Shown: positions 10,970 through 35,023 of the stretch, one piece after another
Numbering within the stretch: the first letter of the stretch is position 1
How the letters are laid out: every line of letters starts with the position of its first letter
NCBI GenBank assembly: GCA_002256005.1
Contig: NKIQ01000025.1
Location: forward strand, 1-39,714
Source: Alphaproteobacteria bacterium PA4
Lineage (GTDB): Bacteria; Pseudomonadota; Alphaproteobacteria; Sphingomonadales; Sphingomonadaceae
DNA length: 39,714 bases
Reading direction: 5' to 3'
Program-made: the position numbers and the translations under genes
Notes under the pieces: model-generated
Database searches by the model: none
Told to the model about the DNA's origin: nothing
Seen by the model: only the letters and a program-made list of their open reading frames with translations

Positions 10970-10974
10970 TCGCT

Positions 10975-11126
10975 TCTCCCCTCCTTTTCAACGGAGGGGT
11001 CGGGGGTGGGTGCCTCTGTTGAAACAGTCACCAATGCTGGGCGCAAAGCGAAGTCCTCCCGACCGACCCACCCCCAGCCCCTCCGTTGACGCGAAAGCGT
11101 CGCCTCCGGCTGAAAGGGAGGGGAGC
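10975..11126. repeat. family-A palindromic repeat pair (BIME-like)
   Basis: Two inverted copies of a family-A element. 10975-11010 reads TCTCCCCTCC...GGAGGGG...GGGGGTGGG. 11067-11126 begins CCCACCCCCAGCCCCTCC and ends AGGGAGGGGAG. They share the outer frame of the 36-bp repeats at 33497 and 33911 but have different stem-loop interiors. The distal end supplies the GGGGAG ribosome-binding site of the next gene, six bases before its ATG. Confidence 0.75.
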
Positions 11127-12008: not shown

Positions 12009-12044
12009 CCCACCCCCGGCCCCGCCCGCAAGCGGGAGGGGAGA
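12009..12044. repeat. family-A palindromic repeat, single copy
   Basis: 36-base element with one T-to-G change relative to the two identical copies at 33497-33532 and 33911-33946. The core is CCCGCAAGCGGGAGGGGAGA. It follows the SDR stop codon directly and lies 62 bases before the ACP start, so it is transcribed within the sphingolipid cluster. Confidence 0.85.
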
Positions 12045-13592: not shown

Positions 13593-13715
13593 GCCTCCGG
13601 CGGCTGGGGCCGTAGGCCCCAGACCCCACCATCCTTTTCGCAGGATCGCCCTCTGAGGCGACAGGACCGCACCAACAATTGGGGTCTGGGGCCTAAGGCC
13701 CCAGCCGCCGGAGGC
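13593..13715. repeat. family-B inverted repeat pair between convergent genes
   Basis: Two 35-base copies in opposite orientation (13593-13627 and 13681-13715) agree at 34 of 35 positions and are separated by 53 bases. Each starts GCCTCCGGCGGCTGGGGCC and is itself a palindrome around GGGGCC..GGCCCC. The pair fills the gap between spt and the convergent phosphotransferase gene and could end both transcripts. A related pair lies at 29540-29663. Confidence 0.85.
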
Positions 13716-29498: not shown

Positions 29499-29539
29499 AT
29501 CCCGGGATTCGCGATGGCTTGCGGGTGACGGTGTGTTCT

Positions 29540-29663
29540 GCCTCCGGCGGCCGGGGCCTCAGGCCCCGGACCCCGATTCGATTTTATCGTCTTGAACGGC
29601 ACGTCGGTCATGTGCGGTACAGGGTGAATGGGGTCTGGGGCCAAGGCCCCAGCCGCCGGAGGC
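29540..29663. repeat. family-B inverted repeat pair
   Basis: Copies at 29540-29574 (35 bases) and 29630-29663 (34 bases, opposite orientation) share GCCTCCGGCGGC, the GGGGCC/GGCCCC stem and a terminal ACCCC with the pair at 13593-13715. The spacer is 55 bases against 53 there, but its sequence differs. The pair fills the gap between DUF885 and the TonB-like gene. Confidence 0.85.
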
Positions 29664-29685
29664 ACGTCTTGCTCTTTCATCCGAC

Positions 29686-32041: not shown

Positions 32042-32079
32042 GGCCTAGAATCTAGAGTCTGTTTGATTGAAAGGAAGTC

Positions 32080-32159
32080 GGCACCAGCCCGCTCCCCCGC
32101 CCGGCCACCCACAGCGTACACTGGAAATGGGTGGCCGGGCGGGGGCGCGGGCCGGTGCC
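32080..32159. repeat. family-C long inverted repeat
   Basis: Arms of 32 bases (32080-32111 and 32128-32159) match at 30 positions around a 16-base loop. Arms begin GGCACC and include CCCCCGCCCGGCCACCCA. The transcript would fold into a very stable hairpin between the hmgA stop and the corC start, and may terminate hmgA mRNA or be a nonautonomous repeat element. Confidence 0.85.
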
Positions 32160-32221
32160 GCCCTGACGCAAACGACCCTAGCGCCATTGTTGCGCCGCGT
32201 CATGCCCTCGTGTCGGCGATT

Positions 32222-33490
32222 TCAGCCACCACCGCCGCGCACATCCGCCCTGGGAAACCCCTGCCAGACTGCATCATAATCCGGCTGCGCCCGTGCCATC
32301 GCCCAATCGGTGACACGATAGGGCCAGCAGCTTTCGATCATGAAGGCCATGGTGCCATCGATCTTGTGGGGCTTCAATTCCGCCGCGCTCGCCGCCTGCC
32401 AGCTGGCCAAATCGGGGCCATGGGCGTTCATCATATTGTGCAGCGACAGGCCGCCGGGGGCAAAGCCGCCGACCTTGGCATCATAGGCGCCGGTGATCAG
32501 GCCCATCGCCTCCGACATCAAATTGCGGTGGAACCAGGGCGGCCGGAACGTGTCCTCCGCCACCATCCAGCGCGGCGGGAAGATGACGAAATCGGCATTG
32601 GCGCGGCCGGGCGTGTCGCTGGGGCTGGTCAGCACGGTGAAGATCGACGGATCGGGATGGTCGTAGCTGACCGTGCCGAGCGTGTTGAAGCGGCTGAGGT
32701 CGTATTTCACCGGCGCCAGATTGCCGTGCCAGGCAACGACATCGAAGGGCGAATGCGGCAGCGTCGTCGTCCACAATCTGCCGCCGAACTTCTGGACCAG
32801 CTCGAACGGTTCGTCGCGATCCTCGAACCAGGCCGGCGGCGTCTCGAAATCGCGCGGATTGGCGAGGCCGTTGCTGCCGATGGGGCCCAGATCGGGCAAC
32901 CGGAACGGCGCGCCGTGATTCTCGCAGATATAGCCCCGCACCGGGCCATCGGGCAGTTCGACGCGATAGCGCACCCCGCGCGGGATGATGGCGATTTCCA
33001 GCGGCGCAAGATCGATGATGCCCATTTCGGTGACCAGCCGCAGCCGGCCCTGTTCCGGAATGATCAGCATCTCGCCATCGGCGGAAAAGAACGCCTGATT
33101 GCCCATGCTGATGCTGGCGGCATAGCTCGACAGCGTGACGCCGCTCAGGGCCTCGGGATCGCCGTTCCACAGCAGCGGCATCACCGAATCATGGAACTGC
33201 ACCGGCGCATCGGGCAGCGGCCGCGGGTCCCAGCGCAGCCGGTTGGGGCTGGCCGGCAGGCGGCGATTGCCGGCGGGATCGAGCGCCAGCGTGAAGGCGC
33301 CATGCGGCACCGACGGCCGCAGCCGATACAGCCAGGACCGGCGGTTTTCAGCGCGCGCCATGGTGAAGGCCGTGCCGGACAGCTGCTCGGCATAGAGGCC
33401 GAAGGCCGGCCGCTGCGGGCTGTTGCGGCCAACAGGCAGCGCGCCGGGGATCGCCTCTGTGGCGAAATGATTGCCGAAACCGGTCAGCAT
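32222..33490 (-). CDS. hmgA: homogentisate 1,2-dioxygenase
   Basis: Non-haem Fe(II) dioxygenase of 422 aa that opens the homogentisate ring to maleylacetoacetate in tyrosine/phenylalanine breakdown. Iron-ligand blocks are visible: H321 in [12 protein letters not shown]327 and H357 in [11 protein letters not shown]. The N-terminal [15 protein letters not shown] and [18 protein letters not shown] are family hallmarks. ATG 33490 follows the DUF559 stop as TGATG. Its ribosome-binding site (GGGGAG, 7 bases upstream) lies in the family-A repeat at 33497. Fumarylacetoacetase and maleylacetoacetate isomerase genes are outside the window. Confidence 0.95.
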
Positions 33491-33903
33491 CACGCGTCTC
33501 CCCTCCCGCTTGCGGGAGGGGCCGGGGGTGGGGCGTGCCCGAGAGCACCCAGCTCTGCCAAAATCATCTGCAATACCGAATCCACATCCTGCAAAACCTG
33601 CTGATTCCAGAACCGCATCACGACATACCCCTTGGCTTCCAGATGGTCTGTCCGTGCACGGTCAGTCTCTTCACTGTGCTGGCTGCCATCCAGTTCGATC
33701 ACCAGCCTGGCCTGGCGACAGACGAAATCACAGATGTACGGCCCCACCGAAATCTGCCGGCTGAACTTGTAACCCATCAGGCTGCTGGCGCGCAGCCGGG
33801 ACCAGAGTTGGCGTTCGGCGGGGGTCGAAGCGTTGCGCATGGTTCGTGCGCGTTCGCGTTGCAAGGCCGGGATGGTTCTTGGTGTGACGCGACTGGTGCT
33901 CAT
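33490..33903 (-). CDS. DUF559 endonuclease-domain protein inside the hpd-hmgA operon
   Basis: Protein of 137 aa with a full DUF559 domain (PD-(D/E)xK / Vsr-like nuclease fold): E30 in [33 protein letters not shown] (D59), E70 in [11 protein letters not shown] and GYVVMRFWN. The last 15 residues ([15 protein letters not shown]) are encoded by the family-A repeat at 33497-33532. An identical inverted copy lies 7 bases upstream of the ATG (33911-33946). The ATG at 33903 is preferred over an in-frame start inside the upstream repeat. The domain's cellular role is unknown. Its position between hpd and hmgA looks like an insertion. Confidence 0.9.
33497..33532. repeat. family-A repeat, copy at the 3' end of the DUF559 gene
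   Basis: 36 bases, the exact reverse complement of 33911-33946. The internal palindrome is CCCCTCCCGCTTGCGGGAGGGG. It encodes the DUF559 C-terminus and ends 7 bases before the hmgA start on the minus strand. Confidence 0.92.
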
Positions 33904-33910
33904 GGCGATG

Positions 33911-33946
33911 CCCACCCCCGGCCCCTCCCGCAAGCGGGAGGGGAGA
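33911..33946. repeat. family-A repeat, copy upstream of the DUF559 gene
   Basis: 36 bases identical to 33497-33532 in inverted orientation. It ends 4 bases from the hpd stop codon (33950) and begins 8 bases from the DUF559 start. The two copies make a 450-base unit with the nuclease gene between them. Confidence 0.92.
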
Positions 33947-33949
33947 ATT

Positions 33950-35023
33950 CTACGCCTCGACCTTGCCCGGGATCACGCCGCGGCGCATCTGGTCCAGCTC
34001 CAGGCTTTCGAACAGCGCCTTGAAATTGCCCTCGCCGAAGCCGTCATTGCCCTTCCGCTGGATGATCTCGAAAAAGATCGGGCCGACCATGTTTTCGGTG
34101 AAGATCTGAAGGAGCAACCCGCCGCCGGTTTCCGGCGCGCCGTCGATCAGGATGCGGCGCTTGCGCATTTCCTCGACATCATGGCCATGGCCGGGCAGGC
34201 GCTGGTCGATCAGGTCGAAATAGGCGTCGATCGTGTCCTGGAACCTGACGCCGCGGGCGCGCAGCCGATCGACGGTGTCGAAGATATTGTCCGTCGCCAG
34301 CGCGATGTGCTGGATGCCTTCGCCCTTGTAGGCGCGCAGGAATTCCTCGATCTGGCTGTGCTCGTCCTGGCTTTCGTTGAGCGGGATGCGGATCTTGTTG
34401 TCCGGCGCGGTCATCGCCTTGGAAAACAGCCCGGTCGACTGGCCCTCGATGTCGAAATAGCGGATCTCGCGGAAATTGAAGATGCGCTCGTAGAAATCCG
34501 CCCAATGCGCCATGCGGCCGCGATTCACATTGTGGGTGAGATGGTCGATGGTGTGCAGGCCGACGCTGTTGTCGAGCGGCGTGGCGCCCTCGATGGCGCG
34601 GAAATCGACGTCATAGATTTCGCGCTCGCCGGCATTGTCGACCAGGTAGAGGTTGGAGCCGCCGATGCCCTCGATCGCCGGAATGTTGAGCTCCATCGGC
34701 CCGACGCGGCCCTGCACCGGCGTCGCGCCGCGCTTGACCGCTTCGGCAAAGGCGGCGGCGGCATCCTCGACATGAAAGGCCATGGCATTGGCGGAGGGGC
34801 CATGCTGGTCGCGGAAATCCGCCACCTGGCCGGCGCTGTCCATGTTGAGGATGAAGTTGATGCCGCCCTGGGCATAGCGGCGGACATTCTTCGACCGGTG
34901 GGTGCCGACATGGGTGAAGCCCAGGGCGACGAACAGGCCGGCCAGCGCGTCGGGATCGGGGCTGGTGAATTCGACGAATTCGAAGCCATCAAGGCCCAGG
35001 GCGTTCGGCATTTCGGCGGTCAT
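33950..35023 (-). CDS. hppD: 4-hydroxyphenylpyruvate dioxygenase
   Basis: Fe(II) dioxygenase of 357 aa converting 4-hydroxyphenylpyruvate to homogentisate, the step before HmgA. The two vicinal-oxygen-chelate domains carry the iron ligands H161 (IDHLTHNV), H239 (GIQHIALAT) and E319 (GPIFFEIIQRKG). The start is ATG 35023, preceded by GAGGGAG. A palindrome lies 28-43 bases upstream, overlapping the end of marR. DUF559 and hmgA follow on the same strand, so the catabolic pair is interrupted by the nuclease gene. Confidence 0.95.
   Translation of the reverse strand: MTAEMPNALGLDGFEFVEFTSPDPDALAGLFVALGFTHVGTHRSKNVRRYAQGGINFILNMDSAGQVADFRDQHGPSANAMAFHVEDAAAAFAEAVKRGATPVQGRVGPMELNIPAIEGIGGSNLYLVDNAGEREIYDVDFRAIEGATPLDNSVGLHTIDHLTHNVNRGRMAHWADFYERIFNFREIRYFDIEGQSTGLFSKAMTAPDNKIRIPLNESQDEHSQIEEFLRAYKGEGIQHIALATDNIFDTVDRLRARGVRFQDTIDAYFDLIDQRLPGHGHDVEEMRKRRILIDGAPETGGGLLLQIFTENMVGPIFFEIIQRKGNDGFGEGNFKALFESLELDQMRRGVIPGKVEA

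Follow-up and report, generated by a model that had tools for sequence, protein, structure and literature searches.

REP and REPIN sequences are intergenic palindromic repeats with an unpaired tail that form inverted doublets, and the gene of a DNA-cutting enzyme, RAYT, is flanked by repeats of its own type (PMC3733652). CGTC repeats, which are mostly alphaproteobacterial, are described as having no dedicated transposase (Di Nocera et al., PMC3733652). An intrastrand triplex motif has been reported from E. coli and more than 260 genomes; in TM_ECO (Holder et al. 2015, PMC4666352) it consists of a hairpin and a G-rich third strand, lies in intergenic inverted pairs, and is described as forming a triplex in vitro. 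Triplex-type repeats are linked to genome instability. The authors of the TM_ECO paper report no association of the motif with transposons, phages or plasmids.

The window, meaning the whole stretch of 39,714 nt that was analysed, is contig 50 of a 3.0-Mb genome. It contains a nuclease gene enclosed by two inverted copies of a repeat, here called family A, at the junction of two host genes. Its features are as follows.

33490..33903, minus strand: DUF559 (PD-(D/E)XK, Vsr-like) nuclease gene, 137 aa; from the ORF call, PF04480, conserved residues and predicted fold
33911..33946, minus strand: upstream arm, family A; from repeat comparison, with the hairpin predicted by DNA folding
33497..33532, plus strand: downstream arm, an inverted copy of the upstream 36-mer that doubles as the last nuclease codons
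33497..33946, minus strand: complete unit of about 450 bp, the gene with its two arms, between hpd and hmgA; missing at this junction in 7/7 relatives
33950..35023, minus strand: hpd, 4-hydroxyphenylpyruvate dioxygenase, host gene upstream
32222..33490, minus strand: hmgA, homogentisate 1,2-dioxygenase, host gene downstream
10973..11121, no strand assigned: gene-less doublet of diverged family-A arms, read by eye
12009..12041, plus strand: single family-A copy with 1 mismatch

A first, sequence-only reading had described two copies identical over 36 nt in opposite orientation, and sequence comparison agrees; 378 nt separate them. It had also placed a nuclease gene between the copies, which the PF04480 match of the likely ORF bears out, set that gene between hpd and hmgA, both of which lie on the same minus strand as the nuclease gene, and taken the left copy for the last codons of the protein, of which the downstream arm, when translated, is indeed the C-terminal tail. 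Between the upstream arm and the nuclease ATG that follows it are 7 nt, and the stop codon of the nuclease, TGA, shares bases with the start codon of hmgA (TGATG). On the minus strand the upstream arm reads TCTCCCCTCCCGC-TT-GCGGGAGGGG-CC-GGGGGTGGG, with the hairpin facing outward and the G-rich third strand facing the gene, and each 36-mer consists of a hairpin, CCCCTCCCGC-TT-GCGGGAGGGG, followed gene-ward by the G-rich tail GGGGGTGGG. The earlier term palindromic therefore fits the 22-nt hairpin and not the whole 36-mer, the remainder being an asymmetric G-rich tail. DNA folding predicts the hairpin on both strands (z -1.66 and -2.20). Elsewhere in the window, a 33-nt inverted repeat with a 16-nt loop, possibly a terminator, lies between hmgA and the next gene (32079-32160), and a second inverted-doublet family (GCCTCCGGCGGCTGGGGCC...) occurs at 13593-13715 and 29539-29664, in both cases with no DUF559 between the arms.

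REP/RAYT is the nearest working analogue of this unit, with the same kind of repeat, doublet, intergenic setting and flanked enzyme gene and a similar logic, but the unit is not a member of that system. RAYT is an HUH tyrosine transposase whereas the window enzyme is PD-(D/E)XK/Vsr-like, and the arms lack the GTAG tag and fit the triplex-type motif. The RAYT domain (Y1_Tnp, PF01797) was found in 1/24 genomes of the genus and in none of the contigs of the window's own genome, which rules out RAYT as mobiliser there. The arms carry no CGTC tag, unlike the alphaproteobacterial repeats of that name. They share with TM_ECO the hairpin with a G-rich third strand, the inverted pairs and the intergenic position, but TM_ECO has, according to its authors, no linked mobile element (PMC4666352). 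Terminal inverted repeats and the existence of gene-bearing and gene-less forms recall MITEs and insertion sequences; however, a profile search found no transposase domain in the window's DUF559 gene, and re-inspection of 33490-33950, like the sequence-only reading, saw no target duplication.

The nuclease matches PF04480 (DUF559) with E 2.4e-38 and 130.8 bits against a curated cut-off of 20.6, and the profile REase_MTES_1575 more weakly (E 4e-10). It has the conserved E, D, E-x-D-G, H and R, and E30, D59, E70, D72 and H76 are invariant in 41 sequences. Its AF2 model (pLDDT 86) has a predicted PD-(D/E)XK/Vsr-like fold and is closest to 3hrl, itself a DUF559 structure (E 1.6e-7), and then to I-Bth0305I (PDB 3r3p; E 3.3e-5, TM-score on target 0.79), with Vsr further off. 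I-Bth0305I, the nearest characterised fold after 3hrl, is also matched in sequence (E 5.9e-4), but it was deposited as a mobile intron protein, whereas the window gene is free-standing between repeats. The E. coli Vsr repair endonuclease belongs to the PD-(D/E)XK branch too but is matched only weakly (TIGR00632, NCBIfam vsr, 22 against a cut-off of 97.85 bits). A score of 86.6 against the 218-bit cut-off of the YcjD equivalog NF007294 marks the window protein as a different protein of the same family. YcjD was earlier assigned to PD-(D/E)XK (PMC1189080), and in Caulobacter cells that lack a methylase the DNA-damage response is reported to depend on VsrA, which belongs to DUF559 (PMC12907096). 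In a PADLOC search for a defence role, no E value fell below 0.0035.

Inverted arms across the gene, at a score of at least 25, were present at 121 of 198 distinct DUF559 loci, the other 77 scoring below 25, and at none of the control loci (GNAT 0/30, best score 18; HNH 0/30, best score 17). The 198 loci are the genus, class and named sets minus two duplicates, and one of them, L220, had only 9 nt on one side. In the genus, where 20 of 24 genomes were positive with DUF559 at 53 places (two at contig ends unscored), arms were found at 31/37 loci of the main set and at 6/14 of a second set that includes several weak or partial domain matches. The class set gave 39/69 loci from 44 genomes, the 69 being the stronger matches, to the exclusion of two comparably strong ones and of every weaker one. 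In named genomes the result was 47/80 for loci picked by protein pattern alone, 2 of which duplicate genus loci; their taxa, as labelled, include Alpha-, Beta- and Gammaproteobacteria, Dehalococcoidia, Nitrospira, Gastranaerophilales and Rokubacteria. The arm-gene-arm architecture thus recurs across phyla. Swapped flanks reached the same score in 2.9% of 4692 class and 4.3% of 6320 named combinations, and in 210/1332 in the genus, whose loci have arm families in common. The GNAT and HNH controls together with the swapped flanks rule out chance and a general richness in repeats. The enrichment of repeats beside DUF559 genes that the sequence-only reading had proposed as a check is therefore present; its expectation of one repeat family is not borne out, as the arms are many versions of a triplex-type motif.

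Nine DUF559 genes occur in the window's own genome, six of which reach the threshold, each with a different arm sequence and together forming four clusters. The low scorers are L007 (16, the locus being cut by a contig end), L002 (21) and L006 (11). The DUF559 gene of L002 is preceded by a series of several motif copies; the 450 nt read downstream contain no arm to match them. At L048, L049 and L060 an apparently complete motif doublet, not a single arm, lies on either side of DUF559.

Many of these versions follow a common grammar: a pyrimidine tract and a purine tract separated by a loop, then a second, short loop or a small hairpin, and finally a G-rich tract. This last tract matches the purine tract in antiparallel orientation, T or A standing opposite A, and family A fits a hairpin plus antiparallel G-rich third strand letter by letter. 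Scoring was restricted to perfect stems and a second loop of at most 6, so that arms whose second loop is a small hairpin were missed. At least 8 triplets on both sides were found at 6/37 genus, 13/69 class and 32/80 named loci (51/186, duplicates included), at 0/30 GNAT loci and in no dinucleotide shuffle. A parallel third strand, used as control, gave 6/37, 7/69 and 22/80 (35/186). The antiparallel rule is favoured because it finds more both-side loci than the parallel one, but its lead is modest, with no advantage in the genus at this threshold (6/37 for both), many stems are mirror-symmetric, and the rule is not proven.

The family-A core occurs in 23 copies at up to 3 mismatches in the window's own genome, against 0 for the reversed control pattern, which excludes a chance origin of the repeat. 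Counting diverged partners, 16 of the 23 are paired with an inverted copy, and they make up the DUF559 unit and eight gene-less doublets. The eight spacers are all different (27-61 nt), and comparison with each other and with the gene revealed no convincing relation. Derivation of the gene-less doublets from the gene unit by internal deletion was considered and is unsupported (2/8 spacers at p 0.03-0.05, uncorrected). Among the 150 of 377 genus matches listed, which come from 10/24 genomes, 31 doublets have the third strand inward and 4 have it outward. Spacers of the 31 inward doublets listed measure 22-85 nt in 28 and 372-379 nt in 3, and all 3 long-spacer doublets listed are DUF559 units (in G000, G002 and G010). 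As dispersed, inverted palindromic pairs with short and diverse spacers, the gene-less doublets are REPIN-like.

DUF559 is linked with one motif across genomes. In 192 alphaproteobacterial genomes from 168 genera, the pattern CCCTCTCCC..GGGAGAGGG..GGG was present in 29/46 genomes that have a complete DUF559 (best E <1e-20) and in 10/146 that lack one (Fisher 1.9e-14, without modelling of G+C), and the association also holds within two size classes. Presence is a safer measure than counts for this pattern because its variable gap doubles some sites. G147, G193 and G194 lack a complete DUF559 and still show at least three matches each. Within the genus a comparison of copy numbers gives weak evidence of the link: five genomes that have a family-A DUF559, among them G022, so counted from arms at contig ends, hold 22, 13, 6, 96 and 50 family-A copies, and 17 without hold 0-67 (p 0.0135, or 0.0188 when two variant genomes with 6 and 3 copies are taken as positives). 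That copy number depends strictly on a cognate DUF559 in the same genome is unsupported in the genus, and copies are kept or gained where no such enzyme resides: 51 family-A copies occur in G021, which has no DUF559, 67 in G009, neither of whose two DUF559 genes is family-A, and 14 in G006, which has no family-A DUF559. The pairing of repeat and nuclease put forward by the sequence-only reading is qualified by such genomes, in which family A is abundant without a matching DUF559. For G021, G147, G193 and G194, where repeats occur without a complete DUF559, enzyme loss or another mobiliser may be considered.

Arm type also matches protein lineage statistically. Across sites and genomes, with host relatedness partly controlled, arm similarity tracks protein similarity (rho 0.185, 3/1000 permutations), and the nearest-neighbour percentile is 0.652 against 0.502 (0/300 permutations). 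A genus-only nearest-neighbour test was weak (8/31), and the larger permutation test was used instead.

At hpd-hmgA the unit is absent from all seven relatives in which the two genes share a contig, as the proposal of a mobile cassette had predicted. Four of them have gaps of 9, 31, 34 and 34 nt, the 31-nt gap retaining half a motif; L099, in G009, has a family-A doublet without a gene; and L092 and L097 have doublets of another family, which resemble the GCCTCCGGCGGCTGGGGCC... doublets of the window. No hmgA was found beside hpd in 12 more distant relatives, and among the relatives, which are too diverged, there is no clean empty site from which a target could be read. Three pairs of same-genome paralogues, 79-80% identical, were compared. 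Similarity ends at both arms in the G104 pair, and likewise in the G178 pair apart from a weak match of 55 nt that lies 30-41 nt beyond one arm. The G101 pair was dropped as an arm-bounded unit and gives no such support, because its similarity extends about 270 nt past the upstream arm. Nuclease and repeat thus appear to travel together in two of the three pairs. Between odhB and lpd a DUF559 unit is common to eight genus genomes (in G005 with a partial domain match).

odhB-lpd units, one orientation, arms changing in concert: L004, L035, L037, L039, L040, L041, L051, L054

The third-strand allele matches between the two arms in 8/8 of these units, with four units per allele, and the small hairpins vary in sequence while all 16 stay self-complementary. 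Movement can therefore be slow, since eight genomes hold the unit at this site. Conservation of the gene at one site, named beforehand as an argument against mobility, is not seen at hpd-hmgA and is in part seen here.

Arm, gene and arm very probably form one genetic unit. We lean towards the view that this unit is a minimal mobile element made up of foldable inverted ends and one Vsr-like DUF559 nuclease, with the gene-less doublets as its partner form. The arms would fold when single-stranded, as on the lagging strand, or when extruded, and the nuclease, which is rather likely to act on its own arms, would recognise an arm of its own type in the folded or branched state and nick or cut there. 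Host repair and replication might then copy the unit, or the arms alone, to another intergenic site, though any particular copying mechanism is less likely than not. Gene-less doublets with spacers of about 40 nt would be the non-autonomous form served in trans, by analogy with REPs, which have been hypothesised to be served by RAYTs.

It is unlikely that a free-standing, homing-type DUF559 gene instead invades doublets that already exist and that spread by another route. Such a nuclease would cut a doublet in its spacer or in one arm, and the gene would be copied in when the break is repaired with a gene-bearing doublet as template. Gene-bearing and gene-less doublets do have their orientation and arm type in common, the fold is near that of the homing endonuclease I-Bth0305I, and repeat-rich genomes without DUF559 exist. 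The family-A doublet without a gene at hpd-hmgA in G009 (L099) also favours homing; the DNA between its arms, which by eye resembles the native hmgA leader, speaks against it. Homing also fits poorly with the prediction of one motif by DUF559 presence across the class and with paralogous units that have arms, besides the gene, in common.

Slightly less likely again is that the arms are RNA or DNA hairpins, acting as terminators or mRNA stabilisers, which were selected around a repair or defence nuclease in operons while the repeats were moved by other means. Gene neighbours read the same way in 52/110 units against 6/28 GNAT loci (strands being rough calls from the longest open frame), which is consistent with such insulation, as are the stop/start overlap with hmgA and the VsrA dependence of the Caulobacter DNA-damage response (PMC12907096). 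It leaves unexplained the link with motif presence and the tracking of protein by arm type, and HNH and GNAT genes lack such arms. RAYT domains, moreover, are nearly absent from the genus. The minimal mobile element is our preferred reading.

In E. coli, ycjD is a DUF559 gene between sapF and fabI with triplex-type motifs behind it; no motif arm was found upstream of the gene. The sapF-ycjD-fabI junction query is at least 80% covered in 3362/5426 genomes, and in CFT073 and Xuzhou21 the place after sapF is taken by efflux genes. In K-12 the ycjD stop codon lies inside a decayed motif, and TM_ECO no. 9 of Table 1 in PMC4666352 is found at 1351204-1351239, 168 nt behind ycjD. In KE47 the motif directly behind ycjD is intact (4784571-4784605). 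An outer tail common to the ycjD arm and other TM_ECO copies was considered and set aside, as only 2/6 comparisons stand out. The main text of PMC4666352 contains neither 'ycjD' nor 'fabI' nor words beginning 'nuclease', and the pairing of this enzyme with these repeats was not found in open-access literature. Together with the recurrence described above, this partial version points to a possible tiny mobile element of a new type.

At hrpB-mrcB, three E. coli strains compared with K-12 show a deletion between the doublet arms in two and absence of the doublet in one. The two arm-to-arm deletions (L319, L320) leave a single hairpin of the triplex-motif doublet, and the UTI89 allele without the doublet has a junction that is not clean and so gives no empty site. 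Such repeats thus do recombine or slip, as the two inter-arm deletions demonstrate, but a passive cassette, in which general recombination lets inverted repeats pick up and carry any ORF and DUF559 is simply frequent cargo, is very improbable given that 3/3 long-spacer family-A doublets listed hold DUF559.

DUF559 is a widespread family that is still named as of unknown function, and the minimal-element reading joins two unsolved matters, the function of this family and the triplex-type repeats. In its widest form, for and against which the case is about evenly balanced, DUF559/YcjD proteins would be the missing enzymes of bacterial intrastrand-triplex repeats, the units would be minimal selfish elements with triplex-forming ends whose gene-less doublets are mobilised in trans, and E. 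coli K-12 ycjD with TM_ECO would be a partly decayed case. To our knowledge, the Vsr-like nuclease type is not used by known insertion sequences. If the nuclease does spread the repeats, these units would constitute a class of bacterial mobile elements with that type of enzyme, and the presence of ycjD in E. coli K-12 makes the connection of nuclease and repeat testable at once.
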